Below are positions 31,205 to 57,126 of a DNA stretch of 63,052 nt, in pieces. The notes below the pieces were generated by a model. The model did no database searches. It was given only the letters and a program-made list of their open reading frames with translations, and was not told the DNA's origin. Made by a program: the position numbers and the translations under genes. Position 1 is the first letter of the stretch. Every line of letters begins with the position of its first letter. The DNA is taken from positions 1 to 63,052 of the forward strand of contig CANIWM010000026.1 in assembly GCA_947471505.1 (NCBI GenBank). Direction: 5' to 3'. This stretch comes from Chthoniobacteraceae bacterium (GTDB lineage Bacteria; Verrucomicrobiota; Verrucomicrobiia; Chthoniobacterales; Chthoniobacteraceae).

Positions 31205-32635
31205 ATGGGTTTCCTGAGCCATCTTTTTAAGCACCGCGAGGCGGGCGATGCGTCGCCGGTCGGGGAGGGGTGTGCCGGGAAAACGGAGATTCCCCCGCAG
31301 ATCGCGGGGATAATGCGGCTGGAGTTGGGCGATGTGCTGCCGCGCGTGCCGGAGCAGTTTGTGCGGGCGGGCGAGCATGACCTTCGGCAGAAGCTGTCGT
31401 TTGACGCGGAAACGGTCGCGGCTTCGATGGCGCGGGGCCGGGTGGAGGTGCCTCTGCCCGTCATCTCCGAGCAATGCCCCAGCGTCTTCTTCCTCAGCGC
31501 GCACGCGGCGAACGAAGTCCTCATCCGGCTGCCATTGCAGAAGCTGGTGGAGCAACTCGGTGCGCTGCCTTCGGAAGTTTCCCCTTCGGTATCGGAAATC
31601 GCCCCGTCGCTTTTGGAAACGGTATCCCCACTTTCGAAAATCGCTGTAGCGCCTTTGGAAATCCCCGCGCAGGATTTAGAAACGCCGCCGCAAGCGCTGG
31701 AAACGCCCACTTCGCTTTCGGAAATTGCCGTAGCGCCTTTGGGAATTGCCGCGCAAGGTCTGGAAACGCCCGCTTTGCTGTCGGAAATTGACCAACGACC
31801 TTCGGAAATGGTCGTTTCGCTGTTGGAAATTAACCAGCAGCTTTCAGGAACGCCCGCTTCGCTGTTGGAAATTGACCCTTGCCCTTTGGAAATGAGCGCG
31901 GAGGTGTTGGAAATTGCCCATTCGCCTTTTGAAATGAGCCCTCCAACAGAGATAACTTCCTCCGTCGCCGAAGAAAATGACGCTCCGCGTGCGGAGATTC
32001 CCGTGGAGCGCCACGACGCCCCGAGAGCCCCGCTCCCGCTCGATGGCTATCTCGGCGAAGACGCCCATTTTCAAGTCACCGTCGCAGCGAGTGCGGGCAT
32101 TCCGTTTTTGGCATCGCTGCGCCCGGCGGTACTCGGTGCCACCATTCCAGCGCCGGAGATTCCTGCCGCGCACGCCGCGCCGCCGGAGGGAAGTGTTGCC
32201 GTGCGGCCGCTCGGGATTCAGCCGCCGCCGGTGAAACCGATCATTTTCCCTCCGCGGCCCGCCTCTTCCGTGGCGCAAATTGCCCCATCCGCTCCGGCGA
32301 CTCCGTTGCCGGTTGCGGAGAGTGTCGTGCGGAAGAGCGGCGAGCGATACGCGGCATTGCAGCCCATTTTTATGACGGACGAAACGCTCGATCTCGCCGC
32401 CATCGCGCGCCACTGCGCTGCGCTTCCAGGGGTGAAAGCCTGCGTTCTCCGAGTCGGCGCCGATGAGGAGAAAAGCGGGGAGTTCCCTGATGCCGGCGAG
32501 ACGATTTTGCACACCCAGACGATCCGTGCTGGTGATGTGATTCTGCGAGTGCTACTCAGCCCGCGTGGTTTCATTCCCGGCGTGCGCGAGCGGCTCGCGC
32601 AGGCGGTGGAAGCTATTGTGAGTTGTGATTGGTGA
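31205..32635 (+). CDS. Repeat-containing protein with Roadblock-like C-terminus
   Basis: A 476-residue protein in three parts. Residues 1-121 are a globular-looking N-terminus (starting MGFLSHLFKHREAGDASPVG) with no family I recognise. Residues 122-247 are 18 head-to-tail heptapeptides of the form x-L-E-(I/T/M)-x-x-x, encoded by an unbroken 21-bp-period DNA repeat (31568-31945). A Pro/Ala-rich linker follows, and the C-terminal about 95 residues (LAAIARHCAALPGVKACVLR and IPGVRERLAQAVEAIV) resemble a Roadblock/LC7 domain, the family that regulates MglA-type GTPases. That matches the next gene, an MglA-like GTPase. The Roadblock call is inference from pattern and context. The stop codon lies inside the left arm of a hairpin. 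Confidence 0.72.
   Translation: MGFLSHLFKHREAGDASPVGEGCAGKTEIPPQIAGIMRLELGDVLPRVPEQFVRAGEHDLRQKLSFDAETVAASMARGRVEVPLPVISEQCPSVFFLSAHAANEVLIRLPLQKLVEQLGALPSEVSPSVSEIAPSLLETVSPLSKIAVAPLEIPAQDLETPPQALETPTSLSEIAVAPLGIAAQGLETPALLSEIDQRPSEMVVSLLEINQQLSGTPASLLEIDPCPLEMSAEVLEIAHSPFEMSPPTEITSSVAEENDAPRAEIPVERHDAPRAPLPLDGYLGEDAHFQVTVAASAGIPFLASLRPAVLGATIPAPEIPAAHAAPPEGSVAVRPLGIQPPPVKPIIFPPRPASSVAQIAPSAPATPLPVAESVVRKSGERYAALQPIFMTDETLDLAAIARHCAALPGVKACVLRVGADEEKSGEFPDAGETILHTQTIRAGDVILRVLLSPRGFIPGVRERLAQAVEAIVSCDW
31568..31945 (+). repeat. 18-copy 21-bp tandem repeat inside a coding region
   Basis: Eighteen contiguous 21-bp units with a TTGGAAAT-like core (for example cctttggaaat and ctgtcggaaat). The period is exact, so all copies stay in frame. 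The copies differ mainly at the last three codons of each unit. The stretch is open in other frames too, where it reads as FGN-type heptads, which suggests the DNA repeat, rather than the peptide, may be what is being kept. Confidence 0.9.
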
Positions 32636-32731
32636 TTAGTGAGTTGTCGCAAGCGTGCTTCTATTATCTTCTCCGAACAGCGTCTCACATCCGCTTGCGA
32701 CGAATCACCAATCACCAATCACCAATCACAA
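32623..32731. repeat. Two-step inverted repeat with AATCACC heptamers
   Basis: TTGTGATTGGTGATT (32623-32637) is the reverse complement of 32717-32731, and gtcgcaagcg (32646-32655) of cgcttgcgac (32692-32701). The right arm lies in an array of AATCACC, three full copies plus a partial (32703-32729). The structure fills the gap between the repeat-protein gene and the GTPase gene; the first gene's stop is inside the left arm, and the second's ATG is 10 bp after the right arm. Confidence 0.85.
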
Positions 32732-32740
32732 AAACAAGCC

Positions 32741-33763
32741 ATGCCGACCATCGACTATACCGCAAAAGAAGTAGTGTTCCGCGTCGCCGCGTGCGGACCG
32801 GCGAGCGTGGGCAAGACGCTCCTCCTTTGGCGGCTGCACGCGCAGACGCCCGCCAGCGAGAGGAGTGAGCTGAGCATTCGACCCCTTGTCGCGGATCAAC
32901 TCGTGTCCTTTGAGTGCACGGCGCACGACCTCGTCCCCACGGGCGACTACCGCGCCAAGCTCCACATTTTCACCGTGCCGGGCCGAGTGAGCGACCCCGC
33001 GATCTGGCAGCGCGTCATGAACGATGTGGATGGGATTATTTTCGTCGCCGATTCCCAATACGAGCGTATCGGCGAAAGCGCAGACGCTCTTCGCGAACTG
33101 AATACGCTGCAAGGCATCGCGGGCGTGCCCCTCGTCTTCATCTACAACAAGCGCGATCTGCCCAACGCAGCGCCCGTGGATTACATCGACCAAGTCATCA
33201 ACAACGCCGAGCCGCGCATCCCGAGGTTCGACGGCATTATCTCGCAAGGAAAAGGAGCCGCCGAAGCCCTCGCCGCGCTCACCAAGCTGATGCTTGCCCG
33301 CACCGCGCAAAAGGAAGAAGAGCCCGCGCCGCCCGCGCCGCCCGAAGCTCGCCAAGAGGTTGCAGTTGTCCCGCAAGAGCCCGCCGTTTCGCTCGATGGC
33401 GGCTGCCTCTGCGGTGCTGTCCGCTACCGACTGCACGGACTGCCGCGAGAGGTCTTCCACAGTCACAGCATCATCCATCGCCGCGCCCACGGAGCGCCAC
33501 TGGTGACGTGGGTCGCCTGCGCGCCGTGCGATTTTTCGGTGCAAGCAGGCAGGGTGAAAGAATACAGCGCGGAGGGCTGCGTGCGCACTTTCTGCCCCGA
33601 ATGCGGCACGCCGCTGACCTTCCGCGAACTCGCCGCCGAAGTGCTCCTCATCGCCGCCGCCACACTCGACACGCCAGAACTCCTCTCGCCCACGCGACAC
33701 GAAGCTGCATCTGATGCGCTCCCGTGGCCGAAGATGACCGACGGACTGCCGCGGTCGTTGTAA
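32741..33763 (+). CDS. MglA-type GTPase fused to a GFA zinc domain
   Basis: A 340-residue fusion. Residues about 10-190 form a Ras-like GTPase: P-loop GPASVGKTLLLWRL, FTVPGRVSDPAIWQRVMNDV, DGIIFVADSQYERIGES and the G4 motif YNKRDLP. The VPG and VADSQ blocks are those of MglA, the polarity/motility switch. A Pro/Ala/Glu linker (about 190-215) joins a GFA/CENP-V-type domain: GGCLCGAVRYRLHGLPREVF, WVACAPCDFSVQ and RTFCPECGTPLTF, with the Cys pairs that bind zinc in glutathione-dependent formaldehyde-activating enzymes and relatives. The combination of GTPase and GFA in one chain is not a layout I know. It starts 106 bp after the Roadblock-like gene and likely shares its transcript, though a hairpin lies between them. 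Confidence 0.85.
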   Translation: MPTIDYTAKEVVFRVAACGPASVGKTLLLWRLHAQTPASERSELSIRPLVADQLVSFECTAHDLVPTGDYRAKLHIFTVPGRVSDPAIWQRVMNDVDGIIFVADSQYERIGESADALRELNTLQGIAGVPLVFIYNKRDLPNAAPVDYIDQVINNAEPRIPRFDGIISQGKGAAEALAALTKLMLARTAQKEEEPAPPAPPEARQEVAVVPQEPAVSLDGGCLCGAVRYRLHGLPREVFHSHSIIHRRAHGAPLVTWVACAPCDFSVQAGRVKEYSAEGCVRTFCPECGTPLTFRELAAEVLLIAAATLDTPELLSPTRHEAASDALPWPKMTDGLPRSL

Positions 33764-48299: not shown

Positions 48300-49349
48300 T
48301 CATGGCTCTGTGGTTGCCGTTTTGATGAACTTCTCCAGACCTTTTGGCAACTTCACTTTCTCCCGATTGCGCTTGTATCGCCGAATCACTTGACAGGCGT
48401 TTGATGCGCTTTTGAGGTGCAGATTCTCCGCCAGCCACTCCTGTGATACCGTCGTCCGGCTCCAGAGCAACTCGGCCAGCGCCGCCTTTCGCACATCGCT
48501 TCCCGGCAGGCTCCGAATCCATTCCTCGCTCAACTCCGCTGCCGCCAGCCCCTCGGCCAACCACCTCTCCGCCTGCTTTTCTCCGTGCGCTCGCTCTTCC
48601 GTCGCCCGTTTATACCCTCGCGACTTTCCTTTCCCGCTCATTGCCTCCACCATCTTCAAGAGCCGCTCTGCAAACTTCTCGCTCCCCCAATACCATCCCC
48701 GCCGAAGGTGGCTGCGCCGCGCATCCACCTCGGCAGAATCCTCTGGGATTCCACTTCTCGCTGCGTCCTCCACCACGGCCCGCCGGTCCAACAGTTCCAC
48801 AAATCTCTGCCGCCCTTCCGCGGTATCCGGCAGCCCGTGCTCCGCAAGTCCCGACTCAGCGGCGAGCCATTTTGCCCTCTTCTCCGGTGCCAGCGCGTAG
48901 CCTCCCGCTACACTACTCCACGGATAGTCCATCACACTTTGCCCCTCTGCCGGCTTGATGATGCCGGCACGCACCGGATTGAGGTGAATATAGTCCATCA
49001 GCGTCCTCCCGTAGTGCCCTCCGCCCTCCACCGGGATCGCCTTATACCGGTCCCCAAACACCCGGCCCCATGCTCGATGCCTTACATTGAATCGCCGAGT
49101 CACCGTGTTTTGCAACCACTTCATCCCCGCCACAAGGTTGGGCTCCGGCGTCTGGATGCACAGATGATAATGGTTGGTCATCAATACCCACGCAAACACC
49201 CGCCACCCCGTCATCGCACACGCCTCAGCGAGCGTCCCGAGGAAAAACCTCCGGTCCTCATCATCAAGATAGATTGCCTCCCGCCGATTTCCTCGCGCCA
49301 TCACATGGTAATTCGCCCCTGCGTATTCGATTCGTATGCTTCGTGCCAT
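48300..49349 (-). CDS. REP-associated tyrosine transposase (RAYT)
   Basis: Y1/HUH-type transposase of 349 residues. The N-terminal core is diagnostic: RSIRIEYAGANYHVMARGNR, the metal-binding VLMTNHYHLCIQTP with the His-X-His, then VFGDRYKAIPVEGGG and the catalytic-Tyr region YGRTLMDYIHLNPVRAGI. The C-terminal half is helical and charged (about 200-349), with a helix-turn-helix-like QEWLAENLHLKSASNACQVI that may read the REP sequence. Flanked by 30-bp inverted repeats that look like its own recognition sequences, so it is probably a still recognisable RAYT locus. Not obviously degenerate: full-length with all motifs. Confidence 0.92.
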   Translation of the reverse strand: MARSIRIEYAGANYHVMARGNRREAIYLDDEDRRFFLGTLAEACAMTGWRVFAWVLMTNHYHLCIQTPEPNLVAGMKWLQNTVTRRFNVRHRAWGRVFGDRYKAIPVEGGGHYGRTLMDYIHLNPVRAGIIKPAEGQSVMDYPWSSVAGGYALAPEKRAKWLAAESGLAEHGLPDTAEGRQRFVELLDRRAVVEDAARSGIPEDSAEVDARRSHLRRGWYWGSEKFAERLLKMVEAMSGKGKSRGYKRATEERAHGEKQAERWLAEGLAAAELSEEWIRSLPGSDVRKAALAELLWSRTTVSQEWLAENLHLKSASNACQVIRRYKRNREKVKLPKGLEKFIKTATTEP

Positions 49350-54245: not shown

Positions 54246-55412
54246 TTACCTCCGCGCTTCACGGCCTGCGAGGAGTTGGGCGGCTAGTTCGGGGTCTTGG
54301 GCTTTGGAGAAGACTTGGTCGCGGGCGATGATGCCGGCGAGGTAGAGGTCCACGAGAGATTGCTCGATGGTGACCATGCCGACTTTGGAGCCGGTTTGGA
54401 TTTCGGTGGCGATGCGGAAGGTTTTGTTGTCGCGGATGAGGGCGGCGACGGCGTGGGTGTTCACCATGATCTCGAAGACGGCGATGCGGCCCGGTTTATC
54501 AATGCGGGGGACGAGGAGTTGGGAGATGACGGCCTTCAAATTCGTGGAGAGTTGCACGCGGATTTGCTCCTGCTGGTGGGATGGGAAGGAGTCCACGATG
54601 CGGTCCACGGTGCGCCCGGCTCCAGTGGTGTGGAGGGTGGAGAAGACGAGGTGGCCGGTCTCGGCGGCGCGGATGGCGGTTTCCATCGTCTCGAGATCAC
54701 GCATTTCGCCGACGAGGATAACGTCGGGGTCTTGGCGGAGGGCGCGGCGGAGACCTTCGGGGAAGCTGGTGACATCGGTGCCGACTTCGCGTTGGTTGAT
54801 CATGCCGGATTGGTGCTCGTGGACGTATTCGACGGGGTCTTCGATGGTGACGATGTGGTCGCCGAGGTTCGCGTTGATGGCGTTGAGCATGGCGGCGAGG
54901 CTGGTGGTCTTGCCGGAACCGGTGGGACCGGTGACGAGGACGAGGCCGCGCGGCATCCGGATCAGCTCGGTGACGATGGGCGGGAGGCCGATTTCTTCGA
55001 GGGAGAGCATCCGCTTTGGGAGGAGGCGCATGGCCATGGCTGTGGTGCCTTTTTGTTTGTAGAGGCTGACGCGGAAGCGGTTCCTGCCGTCGAGCGACAT
55101 GGCGAAATCCACGCTGCCTTCGGTGGCGAGGGCGTGTATCTGTGTGCCGTTGGCGATGTCGCGGGCGAAGTTATCGGTGTCTTCGGGGAAAAGGGCGCGG
55201 GTCTCTAAGCGGATAAGGACGCCGTGGATGCGGAAGACGGGCGGGGAGCCGACAGTGAGGTGGATGTCGGAGGCTTCGGACTCTATGGCGAGGCGGAGGA
55301 TGTCGCCGATGGGTGCAAATGCGCCACGGTCGCCGGTGGAGATGCCGCCGACCGACCGCGCGGGCGGGGCGGCGAGGGGCTCGGATGCGGTCTTTTTGGT
55401 GAAGAGGCCCAT
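54246..55412 (-). CDS. pilT: Type IV pilus retraction ATPase
   Basis: Hexameric ATPase that depolymerises type IV pili. The 388-residue protein has an N-terminal DIHLTVGSPPVFRIHGVL region, Walker A VTGPTGSGKTTSLAAM, the Asp box IEDPVEYVHEH, Walker B VILVGEMRDLETMETAIRAA, the His box HLVFSTLHTTGA, and the ARM/C-terminal domain with VPRIDKPGRIAVFEIMVNT. It starts 7 bp after the pilB stop on the same strand, so both are one unit. An extra 25-residue leader precedes the usual PilT start. Secure as PilT-type; a PilU role cannot be excluded. Confidence 0.93.
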   Translation of the reverse strand: MGLFTKKTASEPLAAPPARSVGGISTGDRGAFAPIGDILRLAIESEASDIHLTVGSPPVFRIHGVLIRLETRALFPEDTDNFARDIANGTQIHALATEGSVDFAMSLDGRNRFRVSLYKQKGTTAMAMRLLPKRMLSLEEIGLPPIVTELIRMPRGLVLVTGPTGSGKTTSLAAMLNAINANLGDHIVTIEDPVEYVHEHQSGMINQREVGTDVTSFPEGLRRALRQDPDVILVGEMRDLETMETAIRAAETGHLVFSTLHTTGAGRTVDRIVDSFPSHQQEQIRVQLSTNLKAVISQLLVPRIDKPGRIAVFEIMVNTHAVAALIRDNKTFRIATEIQTGSKVGMVTIEQSLVDLYLAGIIARDQVFSKAQDPELAAQLLAGREARR

Positions 55413-55419
55413 GTGCGTC

Positions 55420-57126
55420 TTACTCGGCGTCGGACATGGTGGCGCTGATGACTTCGTCGGCAGTGGTCATGCCGCCGAGGACTTTGCGGATACCGTCTTC
55501 GCGAAGGGTGCGCATCCCCATTTCGCGGGCGCGTTTGCGAAGCTCTACGGTGGTGGATTTGTTGTTCACCATGTGGCGGACTTCGTCGTCCACGACGAAT
55601 ATCTCGAAGATGCCCGCGCGGCCTTTGTAGCCCCGGTGTTTGCAGGCTTCGCAGCCTGCGCCGTGGAGGATGGTGGCTTCGTAGAGCTGCGAGCGGTCGA
55701 GGCCGAGGCCGCTGACTTCGGCGTCGGTGAGTTCGTAAGGCGCTTTGCAGTTCGGGCAGATTTTGCGGACGAGGCGCTGGGCAACCATTGCGCGGACGGC
55801 GGAGGAGACGAGGAAGGGCTGCACGCCGATGTCCACGAGACGGGCGACGGCGCTGGGTGCGTCGTTGGTGTGGAGGGTGGAAAAGACGAGATGCCCGGTG
55901 AGTGCGGCGTTGATGGCGATGTTGGCCGTCTCGGCGTCGCGAATTTCTCCGATCATGATGATGTTCGGTGCTTGGCGGAGCATGGCGCGGAGGGCGGCGG
56001 GGAAGGTCATGCCTACGTCGGCGTTCACTTGCACCTGATTGATGCCGGCCATCTGGTACTCGACGGGGTCTTCGACGGTGATGAGCTTTTTGTCCGGTTT
56101 GTTGATGGTGTTGAGGCAGGCGTAAAGCGTGGTCGTTTTCCCCGAGCCGGTGGGGCCGGTGACGAGGAGGATGCCGTCGGGCAGGGTGATGAGCTTCTCG
56201 AACAGCTCTTGGTCGTCGCTGAGGAAGCCAAGCTGCGGCAGGCCGAGGGAGAGCGCCGATTTATCGAGGATACGCATGACGACGGACTCGCCGTGCGTGG
56301 TGGGGATGATGCTGACGCGCAGATCGATCTGCTTTTTGCCCATCTTCACTTGGATGCGCCCGTCTTGCGGCAGGCGCTTCTCGGCGATGGACATGGTGTT
56401 CGTCATGATTTTCAGCCGGGAGATGATGGCGGCTGCGAGCTTCTTCGGCGGCTGTTGCGTCTCGATGAGGACGCCGTCCACGCGGAAGCGGACGCGGAGG
56501 TGTTTTTCCATCGGCTCGATGTGGATATCCGAGGCGCGCATGTTGTAAGCCTCCAGCAGCATCATCGTGGCGAGCTTGATGATGGGGGCTTCGCCGGTGT
56601 CGCCTTCCGCAGAGCCGGTGCTCACGTCCACTTCGTCGTTGCCGATGAGGATTTTGCCCATCGCCTCCTCCATCCGCTCCACGGCGTCTTGCGCGGTGCC
56701 GTAGAGTTTTACGAGCGCGGTGCTGAGGGCGTCGGGCGTGGTGCAGACAAACTCCACCTCGCGCTGGAGCACGGCTTGGATGGCGTCGAGGGAGTTGAAG
56801 TTGAGCGGGTTATCCACCGCGACGATGATGCCGCCGAGGTCGTTCACGCCGACGGGGACGACGCGGTAGCGCCGTGCGATGTCTGCCGTGATGATGTGTG
56901 CGACTTCATCGGGAATGCTCACATGTTCGAGGTTGATGAAGTCCATCGCCGCATTCGAGGCCATAGCGCGATACACTTCCTCCTGCGTGAGCAAGCCTTG
57001 GCGGATGAGCACGTCCACAGCGGACTCGCTGCCCTTCCTGGTCTGGAGCGCGTCTTCGACCTGTTGGCCGGTCACGAGGGAGTTTTCCTGGAGGATTTCT
57101 AAAATGTAGTCGTCGTTGGATGCCAC
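55420..57126 (-). CDS. pilB: Type IV pilus assembly/type II secretion ATPase
   Basis: Hexameric motor for pilus extension or type II secretion. The 568-residue protein has an N-terminal MshEN region (about 1-140), ASDIHIEPMEKHLRVRFRVD, SIAEKRLPQDGRIQ, Walker A VTGPTGSGKTTTLYACL, Walker B IIMIGEIRDAETANIAINAA, the His box HLVFSTLHTND, and a tetracysteine zinc motif (CPNC, then CEACKHRGYKGRAGIFE). That set is shared by PilB and GspE; adjacency to pilT favours PilB. No pilin, PilC or PilD gene is in the window. Confidence 0.92.
   Translation of the reverse strand: MASNDDYILEILQENSLVTGQQVEDALQTRKGSESAVDVLIRQGLLTQEEVYRAMASNAAMDFINLEHVSIPDEVAHIITADIARRYRVVPVGVNDLGGIIVAVDNPLNFNSLDAIQAVLQREVEFVCTTPDALSTALVKLYGTAQDAVERMEEAMGKILIGNDEVDVSTGSAEGDTGEAPIIKLATMMLLEAYNMRASDIHIEPMEKHLRVRFRVDGVLIETQQPPKKLAAAIISRLKIMTNTMSIAEKRLPQDGRIQVKMGKKQIDLRVSIIPTTHGESVVMRILDKSALSLGLPQLGFLSDDQELFEKLITLPDGILLVTGPTGSGKTTTLYACLNTINKPDKKLITVEDPVEYQMAGINQVQVNADVGMTFPAALRAMLRQAPNIIMIGEIRDAETANIAINAALTGHLVFSTLHTNDAPSAVARLVDIGVQPFLVSSAVRAMVAQRLVRKICPNCKAPYELTDAEVSGLGLDRSQLYEATILHGAGCEACKHRGYKGRAGIFEIFVVDDEVRHMVNNKSTTVELRKRAREMGMRTLREDGIRKVLGGMTTADEVISATMSDAE

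Follow-up and report, generated by a model that had tools for sequence, protein, structure and literature searches.

MglA is a GTPase known from solved structures of the Thermus thermophilus (3t12) and Myxococcus xanthus (6h17) proteins, and its gene lies alongside that of a Roadblock-type protein. Of the five MglA groups of Wuichet and Sogaard-Andersen, group 1, to which these proteins belong, has the G3 motif TVPGQ, whereas groups 2-5 have GTPGQ in common and no Arg finger, and a different mechanism common to them all is presumed (PMC4316618). A second paper (PMC6876712) states that Thr54 of M. xanthus MglA completes magnesium coordination and that the Q82L substitution abolishes GTP hydrolysis.

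GFA/CENP-V proteins, a family that includes formaldehyde enzymes, are zinc proteins of the beta-tent fold. In the Paracoccus GFA protein (1X6M/1XA8), Cys31, Cys33, Cys99 and Cys102 hold a structural zinc and Cys52, Cys54 and Cys57 a second zinc; the paper concerned (PMC4682968) adds that glutathione binding was not seen with the C54A variant, and that the wild-type protein did not speed up the glutathione-formaldehyde reaction under the conditions tested. A beta-tent domain that acts on a Ras-superfamily GTPase is exemplified by Mss4/RABIF, which works with Rab GTPases (2FU5) and resembles GFA in fold, but which is a separate eukaryotic protein with no significant sequence similarity to GFA (PMC4287342).

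Here we analyse a gene that joins members of the MglA and GFA families, found in a 63,052-nucleotide stretch of contig CANIWM010000026.1 from a Chthoniobacteraceae bacterium (assembly GCA_947471505.1), hereafter the window. Its product shares with MglA the Ras-like fold (by homology), the TVPG, VADSQ and NKRD blocks and a putative Roadblock-type protein encoded alongside, but it forms a branch of its own, lacks Arg53, Thr54 and Gln82, is five residues shorter after VADSQ and carries a C-terminal GFA domain. That domain scores over the cut-off of the GFA/CENP-V family (PF04828) and, like 8ajq and the Paracoccus protein, has the structural CxC and CxxC motifs; it differs from the family in that its Cys triad is replaced and in that it sits behind a GTPase instead of standing alone. 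The fusion is a new, lineage-restricted combination built from the two families, and no description of a GTPase-GFA fusion was found in searches of an open-access literature collection, most subscription papers lying outside that scope.

A single frame encodes an MglA-like GTPase and a GFA domain

The gene (32741-33763, +) is a single frame that opens with the ATG at 32741, ends with the stop codon at 33761-33763 and specifies a product of 340 aa. An MglA-like GTPase domain (residues 1-190; 32741..33310, +) is followed by a linker of 26 codons rich in Pro, Glu and Ala (residues 191-216; 33311..33388, +) and by a GFA (CENP-V/GFA, beta-tent) domain (residues 217-340; 33389..33760, +). This order, read from the letters alone in the original prediction, was recovered by Pfam, which placed Arf at residues 53-155 (E 4.8e-10) and GFA at 218-320 (E 2.6e-14, 53.7 bits for a cut-off of 24.3), as well as by comparison with solved structures: the best relatives of the first half were MglA proteins (3t12, E 1.6e-26), and the second half matched the CENP-V/GFA protein 8ajq (E 1.2e-8).

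A sister genome of the same genus (G008) also encodes an in-frame fusion of 340 aa, 94% identical to that of the window. Over the 340 codons the two copies differ by 59 nucleotides and 19 amino acids, with no frameshift. Since the in-frame copy is present in a second assembly of the genus, the fusion is genuine and not an assembly error.

The fusion is restricted to one lineage

The prediction had also held the two-domain order to be undescribed, and it is indeed rare: full-length matches were found in two of the ten genomes of the genus, and these same two were the only ones among 40 genomes of the family and 213 of the order. Among 387 genomes sampled from the phylum, searched at E 1e-20 with up to five candidates evaluated in each, the window's own genome alone gave a full-length match. 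Inspection by eye of the order-level matches listed revealed no further contig with both GTPase and GFA matches. Among 72,556 plasmid records, 45 had a match and none matched over 80% of the protein at a single place; the IMG/VR viral sequences gave no match with the two patterns used, and a wider contig collection gave a single locus, the sister copy.

No GFA match was found in the other eight genomes of the genus (completeness 76-100%), and the only one in the window's genome (96.7% complete) is the fused domain. In five of the eight (G003, G004, G005, G006 and G009) the GTPase has a gene of its own (about 170-190 residues); the other three (G001, G002 and G007) have the MglA-type gene only. 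A stop between the two domains in homologues had been named as a possible objection to the fusion. The homologues that end after the GTPase are separate genes in genomes without a GFA match, so the fusion stands and the GFA part looks like a gain in one lineage rather than a misread frame.

The GTPase belongs to a clade that has lost MglA catalytic residues

In an alignment with MglA, the P-loop (G1, GPASVGKT; 32795..32818, +) and the guanine-specificity motif NKRD (G4; 33146..33157, +) of the fusion GTPase are intact. By contrast, switch I has Gln53-Leu54 where MglA has Arg53-Thr54 (32897..32902, +), Arg53 being the intrinsic Arg finger of group 1, and G3 reads TVPGR instead of TVPGQ (32972..32986, +), an Arg thus taking the place of the catalytic Gln82. 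The MglA-type VPG block noted in the original prediction is present, but with Arg where MglA has Gln; that MglA catalytic residues are absent had been overlooked there.

These changes are shared by a divergent paralogue clade represented in seven of the ten genomes of the genus, the two fusions included. Position 82 in its seven members reads R, R, K, K, H, R and R, and none has the Arg53-Thr54 pair; the P-loop Thr is absent from three, one of which (G006) also lacks NKRD. The five solo paralogues belong to the same clade, show the same catalytic loss and have a partner gene upstream, but differ from the fusion by the lack of a GFA tail. The MglA-type gene of all ten genomes (L009-L018, L018 being a fragment) retains Arg53-Thr54, Gln82 and the P-loop Thr. 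Arg, Lys and His at the matching position of Ras (Gln61) are known hydrolysis-impairing changes.

In the GTPase tree, from which the fragments L018 and L019 were dropped and which carries a long-branch warning for L028, L006, L007 and L008, the divergent clade has a support of 100/99. Judged by its Arg and Gln residues, it fits none of the five MglA groups as they are defined in PMC4316618, because groups 2-5, which lack the Arg, nevertheless keep GTPGQ. In another genus of the family (G031), an altered MglA-like gene, L028, has the P-loop GTPASGRA and SLTGG as G3, and is placed beside the divergent clade on a long branch; the protein encoded upstream of it is similar by eye to the other upstream proteins and has no significant score with the Roadblock-end HMM described below (E 0.32). 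We are unsure whether L028 joins the clade (91/90), and whether the clade stands beside the MglA genes of the order (84/83), as the tree would have it.

With P-loop and NKRD intact, the GTPase would still bind guanine nucleotide; with no Arg finger, no switch I Thr and Arg in place of Gln, it would hydrolyse GTP poorly and its switching would be altered. Loss of catalytic residues is by itself no proof that GTPase activity is missing. The protein might be an ordinary MglA switch that carries an active GFA enzyme and achieves full GTP hydrolysis through other residues and its Roadblock partner. The intact nucleotide-binding motifs are compatible with such a protein, as is the other mechanism ascribed to groups 2-5, which lack the Arg finger (PMC4316618). 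These groups, however, keep the Gln of GTPGQ where the fusion has Arg, M. xanthus MglA Q82L cannot hydrolyse GTP (PMC6876712) and, as described below, the reactive site of the GFA domain is lost, all of which makes an ordinary switch highly improbable.

The GFA tail keeps its structural zinc ligands and has lost its reactive site

The two halves of the structural zinc site are kept: C222 and C224 in the CxC motif (33404..33412, +), and C285 and C288 in the CxxC motif (CPEC; 33593..33604, +). By contrast, the reactive-site motif C-H-C-x-x-C reads S-H-S-I-I-H in both fusions (33461..33478, +), the Cys triad being replaced by Ser, Ser and His; two codons of this motif differ between the fusions, both synonymously. 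We compared 25 solo GFA proteins (20 plus 5 further), a selection, mostly of the best-scoring, from many more order-level matches. All 25 keep C-H-C-x-x-C, and one structural ligand is missing from at least four of them (L050, L058, L090 and L093). Seven solo GFA proteins with long frames were inspected for a hidden fusion, two of them already among the first 20, hence the 25 distinct proteins; in each an ATG lies shortly upstream of the GFA domain, and no upstream domain was seen by eye.

The motifs named in the original prediction, TVPG(R), VADSQ, NKRD, GGCLCG, CAPC and CPECG, are all present, but CAPC (residues 260-263) is no GFA zinc motif and reads CAPS in the sister copy. In the GFA tree the fused domain lies on a long branch; as it has no supported nearest solo relative, no GFA donor can be named.

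The proposal of a redox- or aldehyde-sensing tail was not supported by this comparison, the reactive-site thiols being replaced in both fusions and kept in 25 of the 25 solo proteins. A wider version would have the tail read a small molecule or a metal and alter the GTPase, possibly through histidines rather than thiols: the homology to GFA favours it, and His 240, 242, 246 and 250, which surround the former reactive site, are shared by the two fusions (the codon for 246 differs synonymously), so that a metal could conceivably sit at this cluster. Against this, all three reactive-site thiols are gone, and in Paracoccus the C54A change alone left no glutathione binding to be seen (PMC4682968). 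We regard such a sensor as quite unlikely; with the reactive cysteines of the domain gone, a structural or regulatory function of the tail is more likely than chemical sensing.

One regulatory role would follow from the resemblance to Mss4. GFA and MSS4 share the beta-tent (MSS4-like, b.88) fold, and MSS4 is an exchange factor or chaperone of Rab (PMC4287342 and PMC6767298). The tail could bind the nucleotide-poor GTPase in cis, as a built-in exchange factor or as a holdase for a destabilised GTPase; the changed nucleotide-site residues of the GTPase are a case where a holdase could help, and loss of the reactive zinc site with retention of the structural ligands would suit such a function. 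However, MSS4 and GFA are not significantly similar in sequence (PMC4287342), a common fold does not demonstrate a function, and solo GTPase relatives with equal or greater residue loss occur in genomes without any GFA match. An AlphaFold model of the fusion, computed from an alignment of the two fusion sequences, had a mean pLDDT of 34 and gives no modelled contact, so that contact between tail and GTPase is hypothetical. We give this role a small probability, and it is very unlikely that the fusion is a prokaryotic parallel to Rab-Mss4, in which a spent GFA enzyme would have been re-used in cis to hold an MglA paralogue impaired in hydrolysis, or to reload it.

The upstream gene encodes a putative Roadblock-type scaffold

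Upstream of the fusion lies a partner gene of 476 aa (31205..32635, +). Its product has an N-terminus with MGFLSHLF.. and LPL-type motifs (by eye), a variable low-complexity middle and a shortened Roadblock-like C-terminus (32345..32617, +); a repeat-like stretch (31589..31926, +) has copies spaced mostly by 42 nt. The middle looks unrelated in the two fused genomes, with LEI/LET-type versus LPEP-type repeats (L003:2637-3662 (-)), and the C-terminal 200 residues align without gaps. No MglB-like gene adjoining the fusion was seen at the locus.

Upstream of MglA-like genes in the genus, family and order, 22 of the 24 loci read have a frame of at least 460 residues with a similar C-terminus, most of these frames running to the end of the locus. 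An HMM built from the 22 C-termini (L021 and L028 left out) matched the whole partner protein with 27.7 bits (E 1.2e-7), while the best of 1200 shuffles reached 3.8 bits (E 2.9). This match falls into two pieces, HMM positions 44-96 being absent, and by itself the second piece scores weakly (2.8 bits); the G003 and G004 partners match in one piece each. Pfam assigned the partner to no family, Robl_LC7 included (with the whole protein as query up to E 1, and with the C-terminus up to E 10), whereas the MglA-type scaffold of the window's own genome matched Robl_LC7 with E 5.2e-7. The predicted Roadblock-like gene upstream was thus retrieved by the HMM, but its domain is shortened and escapes Pfam.

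Other comparisons gave less. With thin alignments, hhalign returned probabilities of 10.9% and 15.5% for the partner against the MglA-type scaffold and of 0.5% against the MglB-like protein. A model of the partner C-terminus (mean pLDDT 56.5) had no Foldseek match at E 0.001, and the 50 best rows of a fold search contained no Roadblock chain, the best being Vps29 (Z 4.8). A partner gene lies upstream of the GTPase gene in all seven clade genomes: four partners match the Roadblock HMM and three are short and likened by eye through their N-terminus, that of G009 not rising above the shuffles among the matches listed. On balance the partner looks, from its C-terminal sequence, like a Roadblock-type scaffold whose domain is shortened in the fused lineage, and the GTPase would pair with it. 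Gain of the GFA domain and shortening of the Roadblock end co-occur in one lineage (n=1).

A dispersed palindromic element lies between the partner and fusion genes (window 32616-32731), with copies in L079-L088. It consists of about four GTGANNN heptamers, TCGCAAGCG, a variable core, CGCTTGCGA and about four NNNTCAC heptamers. Besides the copy at this same site, near-full elements occupy four places in the window's genome (G000) and nine in G008; the same-site copy of G008 has another heptamer type (CTCTCAA) in its right arm, and its left arm differs less. The window also encodes a Y1-type (IS200-like) transposase (48300-49349, -; Pfam E 4.5e-10), which might move the element in a REP/RAYT-like manner.

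Signs of purifying selection in both domains

We compared the two fused copies with neighbouring genes, glnK and amtB (named by eye). By the NG86 method, dN/dS was 0.107 in the GTPase domain, 0.448 in the linker and 0.157 in the GFA domain; for comparison, glnK had 0.098 and the part of amtB analysed 0.096. YN00 gave 0.07, 1.43 and 0.15 for the three segments, and 0.052 and 0.047 for glnK and amtB, the GFA part thus having about three times the value of the comparison genes. The linker is the least constrained segment of the protein. From this single pairwise comparison (n=2 fused sequences), both the GTPase and the GFA domain look to be under purifying selection. The last 100 residues of the partner are less constrained (dN/dS 0.37).

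These values bear on whether the fusion is an accident on its way to decay, in which a GFA gene gained from elsewhere became joined to a degenerating GTPase of low function. That the fusion occurs in one lineage only, that reactive residues are lost from both domains and that the Roadblock end of the partner is shortened and less constrained would all fit such a history. The absence of any stop or frameshift among the 59 nucleotide differences and the NG86 values of 0.107 and 0.157 speak against it. We consider decay unlikely.

Relation to pilus ATPase genes and to the canonical MglA system

In three of the seven pair-bearing genomes (G005, G006 and G009), each with a short partner, the partner-GTPase pair lies directly behind a GspE/PilB-type ATPase gene, identified in G009, the one of the three on which Pfam was run, as T2SSE (E 1.7e-138). 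Such an ATPase gene was present in all seven further genomes in which it was sought, and the pair is not behind it where the locus reaches past the gene (in G003 and G007 the locus stops inside the gene or shortly after it); nor was the link seen beside the fused copies or beside the G003 and G004 pairs. Two adjoining GspE/PilB/PilT-type ATPase genes occur in the window (54246-57126, -), about 20 kb from the fusion.

The window's genome and G008 also have a trio made of a Roadblock-ended scaffold, an MglA with its catalytic residues and an MglB-like Roadblock protein (L065:6605-9245 and L066:279-2925; Pfam was run on the G000 trio), the MglA gene occupying the middle position. From the kinship with MglA and the ATPase gene beside three of the seven pairs, we infer a role of the divergent GTPase in pili or polarity.

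Discussion

We lean, if only by a little, towards the following explanation, which draws on residues, gene order and substitution patterns: the fusion would be a diverged MglA paralogue that binds nucleotide and hydrolyses it poorly, encoded behind a Roadblock-type scaffold gene and extended by a non-catalytic GFA module. In the window's lineage the GTPase would have acquired a GFA domain that kept its structural zinc ligands and lost its reactive thiol site. The tail would be a folded module that binds, positions or stabilises the GTPase, or docks a partner, and its host protein would be a regulator of the polarity or pilus type.

The genus holds an MglA-type paralogue clade (seven of ten genomes) in which no member seen has kept the catalytic residues, and in one lineage a GTPase of that clade gained a domain that had itself lost its reactive site. 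Should the tail touch the GTPase, the fusion would be a simple test case of a beta-tent domain turned GTPase regulator; if it does not, the fusion would still be a clean case of a single chain in which two enzymes have taken on non-enzymatic roles.
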